DNA of 30,208 nucleotides from a virus. The stretch covers positions 1 to 30,208 of the IMG/VR virus record IMGVR_UViG_3300025120_000327; one strand, written 5' to 3'. Positions 3,462-13,353 of this stretch are shown here, piece by piece. A model generated the notes under the pieces. It had not been told where the DNA came from and searched no databases. It saw only the letters and a list, made by a program, of their open reading frames with translations. A program made the translations under genes and the position numbers. How positions within the stretch are numbered: the first letter of the stretch is position 1; each line of letters opens with the position of its first letter.

Positions 3462-5234
3462 ATGTTTAAAATAAAAACATTAACAGTTAAAAACTTTATG
3501 AGTGTTGGTAATTCAACACAGGCTGTCGATTTCGATCGCGATGATCTTACCTTGGTACTAGGTGAAAATATTGATCTAGGTGGTGATGACACTGGTGCTA
3601 GGAATGGTACCGGTAAAACTACTATCATCAACGCACTAAGTTATGCCCTGTATGGGTCTGCATTAACTAACATACGTAGAGAAAATTTAGTTAATAAAAC
3701 TAATGGTAAGAGTATGATTATTACCATTGACTTTGAGAAAGATGGGCAGTCATATCGCATCGAACGTGGACGTAAACCAAACATCTTAAGATTTTTTATC
3801 GGCGATCAAGAACAGGACGAGAACGATGATAATGCACAAGGAGATTCAAGGCAGACACAGGCTGAAATAGAAAGACTACTAGGAATGAGTCATGAAATGT
3901 TCAAACACGTGGTGGCTCTGAACACATACACTGAACCATTTTTAGCATTAAAGCCAACTGAACAAAGACTTATTATTGAACAGCTACTAGGTATTACAGT
4001 ACTAACTGAAAAAGCTGATGCACTCAAAGAAGAGATTAAAATAACAAAAAGTTCAATACAGCAAGAAGAAGCTAATATTAATGCTATACAAGATGCAAAC
4101 AAAAGGATGCAAGAACAAGTTGAAGCTATGGAGCGTAGACAAAAGATGTGGGGAGCTAAACATCAAGAAAATCTTGCAAAACTACAGACAGCACTAGACG
4201 ATCTATTAAAATTAGATATAGATCAAGAAATTATAGCACATCAAGAATTAGCTGACTATACACAAAAGAAAAGAGACATATCAGATATTGATACCGCTTA
4301 CACACAGGCCGTAATAGATCGTGACAGAGAAGCAAAAGGAATTACTAAACTAGAGAAAGATATTAGTAAACTGCAAGATCATAAATGTAATACCTGCGGA
4401 CAAGAACTCCATGACAATCAACATTCAGACCTGTTGAAAGATAAAGAAACTAGATTAAATGATGCACGAACAGAACTAGAAATACATCAAAAATCTTGTG
4501 ATGAATTTTTGTTAGCTAAACAAGAGCTCGGCGAGTTGAGTACCAAGCCAAACACATTCTACGACAGCAATGAAGATGCTATACATCATCGTTCAAGTTT
4601 AACTAATCTGCAAGAGCAAATAGATACATTAACCAAAGAACAAGATCCTTACAGTGAACAGATTGAGGAAATGAAAGCAACTGCATTAGCTGAAATTGAT
4701 TATGATAAGATGAACGAAGTTGTTAGAATGAAAGATCATCAAGAATTCTTATACAAACTATTAACAAATAAAGATAGTTATATACGTAAGAGAATAATTG
4801 ATCAAAATCTAAGCTATTTAAATGCTCGTCTTGGGCAGTATCTAACTCGTGTTGGTCTTCCACATTCTGTTGTGTTTATGAATGATCTTAGTGTTGAAAT
4901 TACAGAGCTAGGTAGAGATTTAGACTTTGATAATTTAAGTCGAGGAGAACGTAATAGATTAATATTATCATTAAGTTGGGCTTTCCGTGATGTTTGGGAG
5001 TCATTGTATCAACCAATTAACTTATTGTTTATTGATGAATTACTTGATAGTGGATTGGACACTAGCGGAATGGAAGCCACTATAGCTGTGTTGAAACAGA
5101 TGAGTCGAGACAGTAAAAAATCCGTTTGGTTAGTATCGCACAGAGATGAACTAACAGGACGTGTAAATAATGTATTCCACGTTATTAAGGAAAATGGATT
5201 TACTAACTATAGCACGGACCTTGAAATATCATGA
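3462..5234 (+). CDS. 46: Recombination endonuclease subunit gp46 (SbcC/Rad50-like ATPase)
   Basis: A 590-residue SMC/Rad50-like ATPase, partner of gp47. Walker A (GARNGTGKTT, Lys about residue 53) lies in the N-lobe, followed by long coiled-coil helices (about 170-470) interrupted by a zinc hook CNTCGQ at about residues 309-312. The ABC signature LSRGERNRL is near 492 and Walker B LLFIDELLD near 522, followed by a D-loop and the switch His in VSHRDEL. T4 gp46 has 560 residues, so length is normal. The last bases form ATGA with the start of the following SDR gene, which couples an accessory gene directly to this replication gene. Confidence 0.93.
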   Translation: MFKIKTLTVKNFMSVGNSTQAVDFDRDDLTLVLGENIDLGGDDTGARNGTGKTTIINALSYALYGSALTNIRRENLVNKTNGKSMIITIDFEKDGQSYRIERGRKPNILRFFIGDQEQDENDDNAQGDSRQTQAEIERLLGMSHEMFKHVVALNTYTEPFLALKPTEQRLIIEQLLGITVLTEKADALKEEIKITKSSIQQEEANINAIQDANKRMQEQVEAMERRQKMWGAKHQENLAKLQTALDDLLKLDIDQEIIAHQELADYTQKKRDISDIDTAYTQAVIDRDREAKGITKLEKDISKLQDHKCNTCGQELHDNQHSDLLKDKETRLNDARTELEIHQKSCDEFLLAKQELGELSTKPNTFYDSNEDAIHHRSSLTNLQEQIDTLTKEQDPYSEQIEEMKATALAEIDYDKMNEVVRMKDHQEFLYKLLTNKDSYIRKRIIDQNLSYLNARLGQYLTRVGLPHSVVFMNDLSVEITELGRDLDFDNLSRGERNRLILSLSWAFRDVWESLYQPINLLFIDELLDSGLDTSGMEATIAVLKQMSRDSKKSVWLVSHRDELTGRVNNVFHVIKENGFTNYSTDLEIS

Positions 5235-5863
5235 AAACAGTTTACTTAACAGGCGGTAGTAGCGGAATTGGACAAACGTTCAAACGATATCTAGAAGCCG
5301 AGTCATATGATGTTACTAGTCCTACTAGACAAGAACTAGATCTAGCAACACTTGATGTTTCAGATTTAGATCTAAAGTCATATGACTATCTCGTACTGTG
5401 TGCTGGCGTTGATACTAATGGTAAGATTCCGTTTTATAAAATGAAACCTGAAGATTTTAAGAATACTATTAATGTTAATCTTACAGCAAACATTTTACTA
5501 ATACACAAATACGTACAGCAAAGATTATTTAAACCATGGAGTAAAGTTATTGTGGTGGGTAGTGGTGTGGTAGATGGATACTTCCCAAATTTCGGTGTAT
5601 ATGGAGCATCAAAACACGGATTAGATGCCTTTATTCGTACCGTTAAGCACGAATTAGGTGACAAAAACATAGGGTTTACAATAATGCACCCAGCACTAAC
5701 AAAAACTAATTTTAATCGTAATCGGGGCAATATCCCCGAGGATCAAGTGGACGAACTATACAAACAAATACCACATATGCAACCAGAAGAGTTGATCCCT
5801 GTATTCGAGCAAATCTTACGTGATGAAAAACATCTTATCACAAAGATCAGTATGACCAGGTGA
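5231..5863 (+). CDS. Short-chain dehydrogenase/reductase (SDR family)
   Basis: A 210-residue Rossmann-fold oxidoreductase. The NAD(P)-binding motif TGGSSGIG occupies residues 7-14, an LCAG motif (family NNAG position) is near 57, an INVNLTAN segment carries the catalytic-type Asn, and Ser111 in VVGSG with Tyr124 and Lys128 in YGASK complete the SDR catalytic set with the usual 13-residue Ser-Tyr spacing. It is short for a classical SDR (about 250), with a reduced C-terminal substrate region. It overlaps gp46 (ATGA) and the next gene (GTGA), so gp46, SDR and radical SAM enzyme are probably translated in series. The substrate cannot be read from the sequence; sugar, lipid or nucleotide-derived carbonyls are all possible. 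Not a T4 core gene. Confidence 0.85.
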   Translation: MKTVYLTGGSSGIGQTFKRYLEAESYDVTSPTRQELDLATLDVSDLDLKSYDYLVLCAGVDTNGKIPFYKMKPEDFKNTINVNLTANILLIHKYVQQRLFKPWSKVIVVGSGVVDGYFPNFGVYGASKHGLDAFIRTVKHELGDKNIGFTIMHPALTKTNFNRNRGNIPEDQVDELYKQIPHMQPEELIPVFEQILRDEKHLITKISMTR

Positions 5864-6960
5864 ACTTAACATATCCTTGGCAACTATATCATTGGCATTT
5901 TGGAATCACTAGCAAGTGTACATTAAAATGTCCTAGGTGTCCGCGAACTGAATATCGAGATCAGCTGACCTTAAACAAAGACATTGATCTAGAGTTATTC
6001 CAAAAGATACTAACACCAGATCTACTAACAAACACAGTCAAGAGGATTACAATGTGTGGCGATCTTGGTGACCCTATATATAATAAAGATTACTTAAAAA
6101 TCTGTCGTTACATTAAAGAAACTAATCCTAATATACATCTGTTTACTATAACCAATGGCAGTTATAAAAATGATGATTGGTGGAAAGAGTTTGCTGAAAT
6201 TAGTAATGACCGCGATACTGTTAACTTTAGTATTGATGGCTATGATGAAACATCAAATAATATCTATAGAATTAACAGCAATTGGGAAAGTATACTGAAT
6301 GGCATAAGTATAATGTCAAAACAGTCCACGGCGTTCGTGAACTGGGCAACAATAATTTTTAAATACAACCAAGATAAGATAAACACCATAGTTGAGCAAG
6401 CAACAACGCTTGGCTGTGATGCTGTTCAATTGACTAAAAGTACTAAATTTGGCAGTAAGTATGAAGATTATGGTGGCACTAGTGACCCGTTAGAACCTAG
6501 AGCAGAGTTTGTGAGTACCAGTAATAGATATGAAAGGATAATGATTCCGATATCAACCAGAACATTAGATAATCAACAGTATATTGGTACCAAAGAAGTA
6601 CATTTTGAGAAAATACAAAAAAAGTACAACACAGCTATAACTCCGTTATGCCTAATAGGTACACAAGGAATGTATGTTAACGCTGATGCAGTATTATATC
6701 CCTGTAGTTGGAAAGGATTACCGTACAGCAGTTTAACTTCAGATGCTGAGAACATTAGCTTTGAGGATGATTTCTTTACTGTTAATCAAGATGTCTTAAG
6801 TCTACATAAAAGGTCACTTGAAGAAGTGTTAAATGATTCGATCTGGGATAAATTCTTTAATAATTTAGACAATAGTAATACCAGCTGGACTGAGTGTCAA
6901 TATAAATGTTCTGCAGATATTGTTGATCACGATTATGCTGTAGGCTATGAGACCAATTAA
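5860..6960 (+). CDS. Radical SAM enzyme with SPASM-like C-terminal cysteines
   Basis: A 366-residue radical SAM protein. The [4Fe-4S]-SAM motif is C20-x3-C24-x2-C27, preceded by HWHFGITSKC and followed by PRTEYRDQ. A GDLGDP segment fits the strand-2/GGE-type SAM contact, and FSIDGYDE is typical of the barrel. The C-terminal part has further cysteines at about 264, 282, 346 and 350 (an MYVNADAVLYPC stretch ending at C282), resembling a SPASM/twitch auxiliary cluster domain. The start is GTG at 5860, overlapping the SDR stop as GTGA; the frame needs this start to keep the N-terminus ahead of the cluster motif. The following gene begins directly after its stop. The reaction is unknown; SPASM relatives modify peptides, sugars or small molecules. 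Confidence 0.85.
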   Translation: MNLTYPWQLYHWHFGITSKCTLKCPRCPRTEYRDQLTLNKDIDLELFQKILTPDLLTNTVKRITMCGDLGDPIYNKDYLKICRYIKETNPNIHLFTITNGSYKNDDWWKEFAEISNDRDTVNFSIDGYDETSNNIYRINSNWESILNGISIMSKQSTAFVNWATIIFKYNQDKINTIVEQATTLGCDAVQLTKSTKFGSKYEDYGGTSDPLEPRAEFVSTSNRYERIMIPISTRTLDNQQYIGTKEVHFEKIQKKYNTAITPLCLIGTQGMYVNADAVLYPCSWKGLPYSSLTSDAENISFEDDFFTVNQDVLSLHKRSLEEVLNDSIWDKFFNNLDNSNTSWTECQYKCSADIVDHDYAVGYETN

Positions 6961-9800: not shown

Positions 9801-10034
9801 TTACTTCTTATTCCAGATTGAGTATAGTACCCATACTGCTACCAATCCTACTAAGCCTTCAGCTCCGAGGGTTTTGATAACGCCAGTTACAGAACCAATT
9901 ACGTCTGTTGCTGGTAAGAATGCAACTGCAGATCCCTTGAGTAGAACTTCTAATGCAATAAACATTGCCATTAGCGATACTGCTACGTCAGCGATACCTG
10001 CCGCCCAGTTCTTAATGTGTGTTAATACTTCCAT
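9801..10034 (-). CDS. Small two-helix membrane protein
   Basis: A 77-residue protein starting MEVLTHIKNWAAGIADVAVS. The start at 10034 is chosen because a perfect AGGAGG Shine-Dalgarno lies eight bases upstream; a longer in-frame start at 10085 lacks one. Two hydrophobic segments are clear: about residues 13-32 (IADVAVSLMAMFIALEVLL) and 55-73 (GLVGLVAVWVLYSIW), with a Lys-rich C-terminus. Small size and two helices fit a holin-like or other inner-membrane protein, but no family is firmly recognised. A consensus sigma70 promoter drives it, with a roughly 100-base leader, and a terminator follows. An early promoter would be unusual for a holin, so a membrane-modifying role early in infection is an alternative. 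Confidence 0.75.
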   Translation of the reverse strand: MEVLTHIKNWAAGIADVAVSLMAMFIALEVLLKGSAVAFLPATDVIGSVTGVIKTLGAEGLVGLVAVWVLYSIWNKK

Positions 10035-10047
10035 TTTATTTCCTCCT

Positions 10048-10060
10048 GGGGAATGTCCCC
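10048..10060 (-). promoter_or_regulatory. Hairpin just upstream of the Shine-Dalgarno of the membrane-protein gene
   Basis: GGGGA and TCCCC form a 5-bp stem with a 3-base loop directly abutting the AGGAGG of the gene starting at 10034. It could modulate ribosome access or protect the 5' leader. This is suggestive only. Confidence 0.35.
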
Positions 10061-10115
10061 GTTTTAAAATAGCAAGACAGTTCAATAATAGTCTTAAGAA
10101 ACTTACCTGCTCTAT

Positions 10116-10167: not shown

Positions 10168-10185
10168 TCGGATAACTACGTCAGC

Positions 10186-10203
10186 TGTGGCAAAAATGCC
10201 ACA
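10186..10203 (-). terminator. Perfect hairpin after the gp26 frameshift ORF
   Basis: TGTGGCA and TGCCACA form a perfect 7-bp stem with a four-base loop, eight bases beyond the TAA of the gp26 extension. There is no U-tract after it on the minus strand, so it may be a processing or 3'-end-protecting structure rather than a strong intrinsic terminator. Confidence 0.45.
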
Positions 10204-10210
10204 ATGCAAT

Positions 10211-10441
10211 TTAAAAGTAAGGGAGTTTAGTTTTTTCTGTTGTTTCCATATTACTTTTGATAATTGCGTGGATTATTTCTCTTTCTTTTGGACCTAGCAT
10301 CAATGAGGCGTCATAGCTTAAACCCCCTCGCATATGCCAGGACATTCTCAACGCATCATCTCTATAGGCTCTTACCTCTTTGTCGTATCCTTCTAAAAAT
10401 TCAACGACAGCGTCTTGGTCTAACGTTAAGAGCCTTCTACG
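10211..10441 (-). CDS. -1 frame extension of gp26 (frameshift product C-terminal part)
   Basis: Seventy-six codons stay open in the -1 frame relative to gp26, from CGT at 10441 to the TAA at 10213-10211. The peptide starts RRRLLTLDQDAVVEFLEGYD, has the central motif MSWHMRGGLSYDASLMLG followed by KEREIIHAIIKSN, and ends TEKTKLPYF. It has no usable start before its 33rd codon (ATG at 10345, without a Shine-Dalgarno), and the frame is closed by a stop only some 40 bases upstream of the overlap. The motif block looks like real, conserved protein. The best explanation is translation by -1 frameshifting from gp26 at 10441-10447, giving a fusion of about 361 residues. An alternative is a 44-residue protein from the internal ATG. 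Confidence 0.75.
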   Translation of the reverse strand, partial: RRRLLTLDQDAVVEFLEGYDKEVRAYRDDALRMSWHMRGGLSYDASLMLGPKEREIIHAIIKSNMETTEKTKLPYF

Positions 10442-11295
10442 AAAAAACTTGCGTAGTCGAAGCTGATAGTGATTTCGAATTCTTTACCACATTCTTCATT
10501 GTTACAGTTAACTTTTACAGGATCAACACCTGACTGTTCATTAAGCTCAGAGATGTAGTTTTTTATTTTACGTACTACATCGTTACTGGCATTACTGTAA
10601 AATTCAAATATATGTTTTGGATCTGTAACAACTTCACCCGTTTCAGTTTCAATTGAACGAGTACTGTTAGCCATGAACAATGTGTTTAGTTCAATAACCT
10701 TAGATAGGTGCTTGTCAAATATTGGTTTATTTTCTTCAGGATTATCTGCTATGTCTTGTAAACTACGCAGTATCTGTTGTTCTTCAAATGCTATCATATT
10801 ACTTTTATTAACATTGAAGTAGGCCTGTGGATAAACTTTTATTTTTAGTCCATCTACAGATAATGGTATATCCCAATCTGGTGGTGAAATACTAGAAAGA
10901 GTATGTCCTAAATCAATAGCATACTCACTTTCTTTGGAGCAATGTGGACAAGTAGAAGTAAAATCCATTTGATTACCGTATGTAGCAATACGTACAGCAA
11001 TTAAACAGGCATCTACATCTGTGCTAGGCATCTTCCAAGCATCTTTAATGTCTGGACAACAGCTTTCAATTACATTAACTACTCCCTGTCCGTTTAATAA
11101 AGCGTCTGGTGTCTTTAATGTTATTTCATCTTTGGTAGTCATTGACAGCACGCCAAGCTCAGAATTCTGAGGCATCACAAGTGCATCCTTTGGCCACCAC
11201 TTTCCTTGCCCAGGTAGTTTAAAATAAATCGCAGGTTGCCTAAAATGCGTAGCAAGTGGATTACTAGATGCGATTTCCGAAGTGTTTTGATCCAT
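10426..11295 (-). CDS. 26: gp26-like baseplate/tail assembly protein
   Basis: A 289-residue protein of the T4 gp26 baseplate-hub family. Visible are an N-terminal domain (FRQPAIYFKLPGQGKWWP, then DEITLKTPDALLNGQGV and a SCCPDIKD segment) and a zinc-ribbon-like pair: CPHC near residue 113 and C-x4-C (CNNEEC) near 270. The Cys pattern flanks a helical middle domain. T4 gp26 has 208 residues, so this version is longer. A TATAAATA late box lies 44 bases upstream of the ATG; a GGGGAT sequence is the only Shine-Dalgarno candidate. Near its end is a T TTT TTC slippery site leading to a second frame. Together with the tape-measure-like gene next door this suggests it acts as the tail assembly chaperone. 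Confidence 0.8.
   Translation of the reverse strand: MDQNTSEIASSNPLATHFRQPAIYFKLPGQGKWWPKDALVMPQNSELGVLSMTTKDEITLKTPDALLNGQGVVNVIESCCPDIKDAWKMPSTDVDACLIAVRIATYGNQMDFTSTCPHCSKESEYAIDLGHTLSSISPPDWDIPLSVDGLKIKVYPQAYFNVNKSNMIAFEEQQILRSLQDIADNPEENKPIFDKHLSKVIELNTLFMANSTRSIETETGEVVTDPKHIFEFYSNASNDVVRKIKNYISELNEQSGVDPVKVNCNNEECGKEFEITISFDYASFFVEGS
10441..10447 (-). promoter_or_regulatory. Slippery heptamer T TTT TTC for -1 frameshifting in gp26
   Basis: In the gp26 frame the minus strand reads AGT TTT TTC, a canonical X XXY YYZ heptamer, four codons before the gp26 stop. Slipping back one base leads straight into the 76-codon open frame. Downstream, TTAACG and CGTTGA can pair (one G-U) and may act as a weak stimulatory stem. 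Confidence 0.75.
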
Positions 11296-11338: not shown

Positions 11339-11346
11339 TATTTATA
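11339..11346 (-). promoter_or_regulatory. Late promoter box (TATAAATA) for gp26
   Basis: The plus strand reads TATTTATA, giving the exact T4 late element on the minus strand, 43 bases upstream of the gp26 ATG at 11295. Second exact TATAAATA of the window. Confidence 0.75.
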
Positions 11347-11376: not shown

Positions 11377-13353
11377 ATGGCTGAAGAAGATAACCAGGAA
11401 ACAATTAACAAGATAAACGAGACCGGGGAAAGGTTTGGGTTTGTTAATAAAATTCTGGCCAAGTTCTCAGCTCAGATCATAAAGTCAACAAAATCCACTG
11501 AAGAACAATTTAAAGATCTTAATAAAGAAGCGGCTAAAAATGCGGATGCCACTAAAAAAGCCACCAATGACCAACAGAAAAAGGCTCTCCAAGAAAAGAA
11601 ACAAGATATAGAAAAGGCGAAACGAAGGGTAGAATATGACAGGATACTTGAGGACTCTAGCGAAGCACTAGTTAAAGCCACAGGTGCACTTACTGCACAA
11701 TTAACAACATCTATACAGGATAATAGTGGTGCTGTTGCAATATCTAGTAAGGTAATGTCCGCTGGTATGGGTTTCGTAGGTTCTGCGTCACAAACAGCTG
11801 GTACTGCGTTACAGGTACTTGGGGGTGGTATGATAGCGGCTGGAGTTGCAACAATGGGATTTACAGCGGCTATAGGCGCTGTGGTATATGGGGCAGGCCT
11901 TTTACTTAATGTACTGGGTGGCGCGACCACAGCCTTAGGGAAATTTGCTGTAGAAGCATTGAGCAAGGAATTAGAAAAAACAATAGTTGCATTTGGTAAA
12001 GCTAGCTCAGGTGGAGCATTATTTGCAGACGGAATGACTGGACTGAGAGATGCCGCCAAAAATGCCGGTCTAACTATAGAACAGTTTTCTGAAACAATAC
12101 AGAGACAAAGTGCAAACATTGCCGCCGCTGGTCTAAGTGTACCACAAGGAGTTAAACGGCTAGGTAACGCTCTAAGGGCAGGTGGTGATGAGTTACGTGG
12201 TAACTTAATTAATCTTGGATTTTCTATAGCAGAACAAGGTGACCTAGTAGCAGAAACAATGGCGCTAATGAGACAGAGTGGACAACCACTGCGAGCAAAC
12301 GGAACACAGATAGCAGTACAAACAGAAAGGTATGCAGAAAATCTTAGGATAATTGCCGCAATAACAGGTGAAGATGCTAAGAAAAAAATGGCACAAACCA
12401 GAGAAATAACTAACCAGCTGGCATTCCAACAAAAACTAGCAGGTATGGACGAAGATCAAAGAATAAAGATCATTAATGGTATGGCAAATATGCCAGCGGC
12501 CCTACAGAAAAATGTTAGAGATATTGTGTTATTTGGATCAGTAATAAACACAACTGGTGCTACTTTAACAGCACTAAGTCCAAATATACAAGGACTGCAA
12601 AACTCAATAGCCTCACAAGTTACTGCTGGAACATTAAACGCAGATTCAGCCAGAATGGCAACCAAACAATTTAATGCAGGCATACGAGCAGAACTTGCGG
12701 ATCAGAGTGGTGCATTTAGTTCGATAGCACTAGCACAGAGTGCAGGACTAAGTGGATTAGCCAGTGATGTAGCGGCTTTAGCTACAAATCTGTTAGTACA
12801 GGTGACACCAGATAAAGCCGCTATTACTGCCGCAGAAGAAGCAGTACGAAATCAAAAGAAAACAACTGACGAGCTAACAGATAATGTTAAAGACGCATCG
12901 ATTGCGGCCCAAAAACTAGCAACAGCAATACAAGATTCGTTGCTAGCACCAATGGGTCTTTTTGCTGATGCAACTAAAGGCATAACCGAAGGGATGGTCA
13001 AGGTTGTAGATAAACTTTACGAATTGGCTGGAGTAGTGAATCCGAACAAAGATTTCGGGACGTCCACATCACAGAACATCGGACCGGATTATACCTCAGT
13101 ATCAGGAATTCTGGCTGACACAAAGATGTCAAAAGGTGGCGTTGCTACGGGACCAGTGAGTGGATATGCCGCAACCCTACACGGTACAGAAGCAGTTGTG
13201 CCATTGCCAGACGGTAAGAATATACCAGTTAATCTAGATACTTCAAGTATAACAACTGCACTACAACATCAAACAGCAACCATTTCCGAATTACTCAGAG
13301 CCCAACAGCAGAGTAACCAACTAACATCACAACTATTATCAGTAAGTGTCTAG
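11377..13353 (+). CDS. Probable tail tape measure protein
   Basis: A 658-residue protein with tape-measure architecture: a charged, coiled-coil N-terminus (about 1-100, with repeated Lys/Glu heptads), a long Gly/Ala-rich hydrophobic region (about 120-200, such as GGGMIAAGVATMGFTAAIG), helical middle segments, and a C-terminal tail near residue 584 reading KGGVATGPVSGY, then LHGTEAVVPLPDG and IPVNL. The last block is a common ending in phage tape measure proteins. T4's gp29 (590 residues) has this role. Adjacency to the frameshifted gp26 fits the chaperone-tape measure arrangement of lambda-like tails. The ATG has no strong Shine-Dalgarno; a GATAAATA late box is upstream. The assignment is by architecture. 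Confidence 0.65.
   Translation: MAEEDNQETINKINETGERFGFVNKILAKFSAQIIKSTKSTEEQFKDLNKEAAKNADATKKATNDQQKKALQEKKQDIEKAKRRVEYDRILEDSSEALVKATGALTAQLTTSIQDNSGAVAISSKVMSAGMGFVGSASQTAGTALQVLGGGMIAAGVATMGFTAAIGAVVYGAGLLLNVLGGATTALGKFAVEALSKELEKTIVAFGKASSGGALFADGMTGLRDAAKNAGLTIEQFSETIQRQSANIAAAGLSVPQGVKRLGNALRAGGDELRGNLINLGFSIAEQGDLVAETMALMRQSGQPLRANGTQIAVQTERYAENLRIIAAITGEDAKKKMAQTREITNQLAFQQKLAGMDEDQRIKIINGMANMPAALQKNVRDIVLFGSVINTTGATLTALSPNIQGLQNSIASQVTAGTLNADSARMATKQFNAGIRAELADQSGAFSSIALAQSAGLSGLASDVAALATNLLVQVTPDKAAITAAEEAVRNQKKTTDELTDNVKDASIAAQKLATAIQDSLLAPMGLFADATKGITEGMVKVVDKLYELAGVVNPNKDFGTSTSQNIGPDYTSVSGILADTKMSKGGVATGPVSGYAATLHGTEAVVPLPDGKNIPVNLDTSSITTALQHQTATISELLRAQQQSNQLTSQLLSVSV

Follow-up and report, generated by a model that had tools for sequence, protein, structure and literature searches.

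Probable programmed −1 frameshifting in gp26 of a jumbo-type phage lineage and its relation to gp26 and gp51 of phage T4

The T4-like genes gp26/gp51 were reportedly identified as tail assembly chaperone genes by Vladimirov, Gautam and Davidson in 2022 (Virology 566:9, pmid 34826709) and, going by the title of that work and by papers citing it, the assignment is not a new one. In the passage of the PRFect paper (PMC10885494) dealing with this work, some T4-like phages are described as having, in place of frameshifting, one short gene and a second, longer fusion gene, and the corresponding passage of the phage Adele paper (PMC12846349) credits the same work with poly-T −1 signals in the TAC-N genes of T4-like phages. 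In a review of T4 (PMC3004832), gp26 and gp51 appear among the hub assembly chaperones, and according to a 2016 review of recoding (PMC5009743) G-T frameshifting is widely conserved among phages with long tails, 'except T4'.

The stretch of DNA analysed here, referred to as the window, is a 30,208-base record of an uncultivated virus in IMG/VR and represents a 30-kb fragment. It encodes a T4-type portal (PF07230) and also a T4-type major head protein, head maturation protease and late sigma factor, and its source is a large bacterial virus of a jumbo-type uncultivated lineage.

Gp26 of the window and T4-like gp26/gp51 have in common the same PF12322 protein, a short and a long form, and the same type of C-terminal domain. 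In T4 and RB43, however, the long form comes from the separate gene 51, whereas in the window both forms would be made from one gene via T TTT TTC. In the lineage of the window the −1 frame is unannotated or labelled 'hypothetical'. With lambda G/GT and P2 E/E′ the locus would share a short product and a low-frequency −1 product with a C-terminal extension, both from a tail assembly gene. It differs in that gp26 of the window is approximately 290 aa against approximately 140 for lambda G and contains two conserved Cys pairs, with no homology detected, and in that its tape measure candidate is divergent, whereas in lambda the tape measure gene lies downstream. In the TAC of the Vandenendeviridae/Andersonviridae (phage Adele, PMC12846349) a conserved −1 site containing GTTTTT is located at the 3′ end of TAC-N and all genomes keep the −1 frame open, as is the case here, although the Adele-type phages are a different group of myophages from that of the window.

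The 3′ end of gp26 and its conservation

The features identified at this end of the gene were as follows:

10426–11295, minus strand: gp26 short product of 289 aa, TAC-N (PF12322 T4_baseplate / phrog_150)
10441–10447, minus strand: slippery heptamer T TTT TTC in X XXY YYZ phase (sequence and conservation)
10426–10428, minus strand: zero-frame TAA stop, four codons past the heptamer (sequence)
10214–10441, minus strand: −1 frame extension of 76 codons, RRRLLTLDQDAVVEFLEGYDKEVRAYRDDALRMSWHMRGGLSYDASLMLGPKEREIIHAIIKSNMETTEKTKLPYF; TAC-C, probable counterpart of the T4 gp51 C-terminus (tblastn, pN/pS and profile comparisons)
10211–10213, minus strand: TAA closing the −1 frame (sequence)

The minus strand reads GCA AGT TTT TTC GTA GAA GGC TCT TAA at the 3′ end of gp26, and after a slip the −1 frame would continue as CGT AGA AGG ... 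for 76 codons. The preliminary description of this locus had placed an in-phase heptamer four codons ahead of the gp26 stop and had given the −1 frame as open for exactly 76 codons to the TAA at 10213–10211; the heptamer was seen at 10447–10441 and the stop at 10428–10426, and the coordinates and codon count of the −1 frame were correct.

In-phase T TTT TTY together with a −1 frame was found at 55/55 mapped single-copy gp26 loci. These represent 24 lineages of less than 60% identity, spanning jumbo phages, cyanophages, and Pelagibacter, Vibrio, Caulobacter and Sinorhizobium phages; the mapped homologues include 16 isolate jumbo phages, 31 IMG/VR relatives at 41–69% identity and the small phages KVP40, Aeh1, S-PM2, P-SSM2, HTVC008M, Cr30 and phiM12. 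The distance between heptamer and gp26 stop at these loci is 0–11 codons and the −1 ORF has a length of 57–79 codons. A further 85 uncultivated IMG/VR loci from three single-copy groups (80 of cyanophage type, three of 121Q type and two of PA5oct type) all have the in-phase T TTT TTY as well; a few extensions in the cyanophage-type set are short, some of them owing to contig ends. Two loci were retrieved blind by the −1 peptide alone, and both have gp26 and the heptamer upstream. With tblastn, the −1 peptide of the window matched the −1 frame of Agrobacterium phage Atu_ph07 and Sinorhizobium phage Phosso (E=3e-9 and 4e-8, respectively). The T6 site is absent from gp26 of T4 and RB43, both of which have two PF12322 genes, while all of the T4-related phages examined with a single PF12322 gene keep the frameshift signal.

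Conditioned on the amino acids and codon usage of each gene, the joint probability of nnT TTT at the site was approximately 10^−13.3 over the 24 lineages of less than 60% identity; only one of the 12 other Phe-Phe dipeptides in these gp26 genes is written in this manner. Past the zero-frame stop, pN/pS among the relatives of the window (pairs non-independent) was 0.30 in the −1 frame versus 0.92 and 1.51 in the other frames. Among 25 distinct sequences, no stops were found beyond the overlap in the −1 frame, versus 3–9 in each other frame. The pattern of substitutions indicates that the −1 frame of these relatives is under purifying selection. Both the conservation of heptamer and −1 frame across homologues and selection in that frame had been put forward as checks on the frameshift, and both were observed. 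The frameshift feature at the end of gp26 is genuine, conserved and functionally coherent.

Products of gp26 and their relation to gp26 and gp51 of T4

Gp26 of the window matched Pfam PF12322 (E=1e-15, 58.5 bits against a curated cut-off of 24.5) and PHROG phrog_150 ('baseplate hub', E=7e-18), and the top BFVD fold match of its AF2 model (pLDDT 85.5) was 'Baseplate hub assembly protein, bacteriophage T4-like' (E=4e-23). It is classed here as a T4-like (PF12322) chaperone and not as a lambda G homologue. Its two conserved Cys pairs, C116/C119 and C264/C269, suggest a zinc site. The fold was also found to match unannotated proteins of phiRSL1, PaBG, Motura, RSF1, Erwinia Special G and SP-15. The −1 extension was modelled by AlphaFold as all-helical (pLDDT 83), and the −1 peptide of the window alone gave no match in Pfam or PHROG. 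Profiles of the two domains and of T4 gp51 found nothing relevant when searched against solved structures, and Foldseek with both domains gave no match in the PDB at E<=0.001, solved tail assembly chaperones included; tail assembly chaperones are highly divergent, and a missing PDB match is therefore weak evidence.

T4 possesses two PF12322 genes, gp26 and gp51, the latter consisting of PF12322 (1–201) and a C-terminal extension, and RB43 likewise has two. A single PF12322 gene was found in KVP40, Aeh1, S-PM2, P-SSM2, HTVC008M, Cr30, phiM12 and the jumbo phages with a match, with one in the searched full jumbo genomes and one in the 30-kb fragment that is the window; SCTP-2 gave no Pfam match despite having a gp26 homologue. 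The −1 extensions of the small phages matched the C-terminus of T4/RB43 gp51 (hhalign prob 97, E=1e-10), two PHROGs are matched in common by the P-SSM2 extension and the T4 gp51 C-terminus, and the KVP40 record notes the likeness of its product to the gp51 C-terminus. These profile matches lead to the conclusion that the gp51 C-terminus of T4 and the −1 extensions of the small phages are homologues. The jumbo fusion matched the small-phage fusion (hhalign prob 99, E=4e-18). The jumbo −1 domain alone gave a weak match to the small-phage/gp51 C-terminus (prob 34–36, E approximately 4e-4), and the jumbo fusion gave no match to the two-sequence T4/RB43 gp51 profile (prob 0.8). Given this weak lone match and the failed gp51 profile match, the jumbo extension, which occupies the same position, is probably, though not certainly, the same domain as the gp51 C-terminus.

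It is considered very likely that gp26 of the window is a programmed −1 frameshift gene yielding a short and a long tail assembly chaperone. The chaperone part of this reading is supported by homology, as T4 gp26 and gp51, the hub assembly chaperones of the T4 review (PMC3004832), both belong to PF12322 and a match to the C-terminus of gp51 was obtained with the −1 ORFs of the small phages. Most ribosomes would terminate at 10428–10426 to give the short form of 289 aa, while some, presumably at low frequency, would slip by −1 on U UUU UUC (10447–10441) and then translate 76 more codons. The long form would have approximately 361 aa, with an all-helical C-terminal domain probably equivalent to the T4 gp51 C-terminus. 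As in lambda G/GT, many short and few long molecules may coat the tape measure protein, with the C-terminal domain recruiting tail tube/hub components and afterwards departing. The proposal in the preliminary description that T4-type gp26 is a tail assembly chaperone is supported by the gp26/gp51 homology; however, it had already been published, and the mechanism is not transferable to T4, which has two genes and no T6 site.

An alternative, regarded as unlikely, is that gp26 is indeed frameshifted but that its products are components of the baseplate hub or hub-assembly factors and not tape-measure chaperones of the G/GT kind. The annotation of phrog_150 and the genetics placing gp26 in the T4 hub (PMC3004832) agree with this, as does the annotation of gp26 of CBB as a structural protein, a label that would be surprising in the case of a chaperone not present in virions. 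However, the same T4 review tables both proteins under assembly chaperones, the passage in PRFect (PMC10885494) renders the 2022 work as dealing with short and long tail assembly chaperone genes of T4-like phages, and a short/long pair produced through −1 frameshifting is the hallmark of G/GT.

The gene neighbouring gp26 is the following:

11377–13353, plus strand: divergent 658-aa virion structural protein, candidate tape measure protein (neighbour conservation and weak phrog_14121 match)

This gene adjoins gp26 divergently in most IMG/VR relatives; its match to phrog_14121 is weak and its matches are to 'virion structural protein' only. It carries a C-terminal GG..GP....G.EAVVPL motif, which we take to resemble those of tape measure proteins. 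Searches against PHROG, Pfam and NCBIfam gave no support for tape measure identity, and neither did hhalign comparisons with T4 gp29, KVP40.0326 and PSSM2_016. Of the earlier view that gp26 lies beside a tape measure gene, the conserved divergent structural-protein neighbour holds, but similarity to T4 gp29 was not found; it is plausible that the 658-aa protein is the tape measure protein.

Entry into the −1 frame and its stimulation

The claim that the −1 frame has no supported start was borne out in the window, with no ATG, GTG or TTG in its first 30 codons. The earliest candidates are a TTG at codon 31 and an ATG at codon 33, with no SD-like 4-mer upstream, and starting at either would cost the conserved N-terminal part of the −1 peptide. 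As the conserved block FFR.RLL.L sits ahead of codon 31, it is reachable in the window solely from gp26. In PA5oct the −1 frame contains zero ATG/GTG/TTG codons. Atu_ph07, Phosso, the locus L048 and cyanophages have an ATG that spans the gp26 stop or lies shortly after it, and reinitiation is therefore possible in those phages. Homologues whose downstream frame has its own start and Shine-Dalgarno, or an unconserved heptamer together with a lack of junction peptides, had been named as findings that would speak against the frameshift; an ATG near the stop does occur in some, but the heptamer is conserved throughout the single-copy loci.

It is improbable that the downstream frame represents a small gene of its own ('gp51' in cyanophage annotations) translated via reinitiation or coupling after gp26 termination, even though the KVP40 and P-SSM2 records annotate a distinct 'baseplate hub assembly catalyst' and Atu_ph07, Phosso, L048 and most cyanophages have an ATG or GTG on or immediately behind the gp26 stop. 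Start positions vary among lineages while the heptamer is constant, and the invariant T TTT TTY and the conserved codons ahead of any start (FFRRRLL..L in the window) would be left unexplained. An independent start or reinitiation as the main route was rejected, as no start is usable in the window and none whatsoever exists in PA5oct.

The heptamer is accompanied in the clade of the window by a putative stimulatory stem:

10427–10435, minus strand: 5′ arm AGGCUCUUA, beginning 5 nt past the heptamer (consensus fold and covariation)
10366–10374, minus strand: 3′ arm UAAGAGCCU, following a 52-nt loop (consensus fold and covariation)

In an alignment of 26 distinct, related sequences of this clade, including Atu_ph07 and Phosso, 96.2% of the cells of the 9-bp stem are paired, with double changes at three pairs. 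Eleven cells are altered on both sides, a figure matched by 0/500 shuffles, and shifting the partner arm abolishes the signal. Both arms lie within coding sequence. The RNAalifold consensus contained the same 9-bp stem, and the fold of the RNA of the window itself includes it but is not unusually stable (z −0.99). It is probable that slippage in the window is aided by this RNA stem 5 nt downstream.

In E. coli dnaX, a Shine-Dalgarno-like element is located approximately 10 nt upstream of the slippery heptamer. Cyanophage-type gp26 resembles dnaX in this respect, with an SD-like GGAGG/GAGGG 9–10 nt upstream of the heptamer, and 71/74 distinct cyanophage-type genes use GAG for the Glu of the L-E-G motif, versus 392/1606 (24%) Glu codons elsewhere in these genes. 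The GAG bias creating GGAGG/GAGGG was seen in cyanophage-type gp26 loci L083–L162. The upstream element is absent from the group of the window, which has the long-loop downstream stem in its place.

Still less probable is transcriptional slippage, in which RNA polymerase would slip on the T6–T8 run and the long form would come from edited mRNA. The site is a homopolymer run with at least seven T in HTVC008M, Cr30, phiM12 and XacN1, but at most loci it is exactly six T followed by C. A run of six T is on the short side for transcriptional slippage in bacteria. Codon phasing, a stem beginning 5 nt past the heptamer and an SD-like element 9–10 nt ahead of it are moreover features of ribosomal frameshifting. 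A coincidence of heptamer and open frame can practically be dismissed, for although T6C is common in the AT-rich window (8 observed versus 10.6 expected), so that the excess over chance lies in conservation and not in mere occurrence, a chance origin is ruled out by the nnT TTT probability, pN/pS and stop counts and countered by the homology results. The programmed −1 frameshift put forward in the preliminary description is strongly supported at sequence level by the conserved heptamer, the conserved and selected −1 frame, the lack of an available start and the covarying downstream stem.

Annotation, evolution and gene surroundings

The two frames are joined in 0/16 annotated jumbo-phage records, and likewise are not joined in KVP40 and P-SSM2; in these records the C-terminal piece is omitted, truncated, labelled 'hypothetical' or given as a separate 'gp51'. 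The frameshift reading would thus correct the annotation of the gp26 loci of the jumbo phages, KVP40 and P-SSM2. A literature search, in which the 2022 work was represented by its title and citing papers, returned no report of a jumbo-phage gp26 frameshift, stem or GAG bias. What therefore appears to be undescribed is the extension in jumbo phages, the stem with its covariation and the proposed exchange of stimulators from clade to clade.

As the single-PF12322 phages keep the signal and the two-gene phages T4 and RB43 are without it, T4 looks derived. The balance leans somewhat towards frameshifted gp26 being ancestral to the whole T4-like lineage. The stimulator would in that case have been swapped between clades, with the upstream SD-like element in cyanophage-type genes and the downstream long-loop stem in the jumbo clade of the window, and the T4 lineage would be the exception, having replaced frameshifting by duplication and fusion (26 + 51). 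T4 gene 51, an essential gene whose function was once unknown, would then be the duplicated and fused long form.

A sequence resembling the T4 late promoter, TATAAATA, is present upstream of gp26 (11339–11346, minus strand) with a second copy at 1453–1460; it was rejected as a T4 late promoter, its frequency in the window being not above chance. Directly past the −1 frame stop lies a small hairpin, TGTGGCATTTTTGCCACA (10180–10210, minus strand), which is followed by no T run and is therefore no obvious terminator. Downstream of the gp26 frames, a short hydrophobic ORF (9801–10085, minus strand) with an in-frame ATG at approximately 10035 preceded by AGGAGGA apparently encodes a small membrane protein. 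It should also be noted that the region 5231–6960 (plus strand) contains auxiliary genes for a FabG-like reductase and radical SAM proteins.
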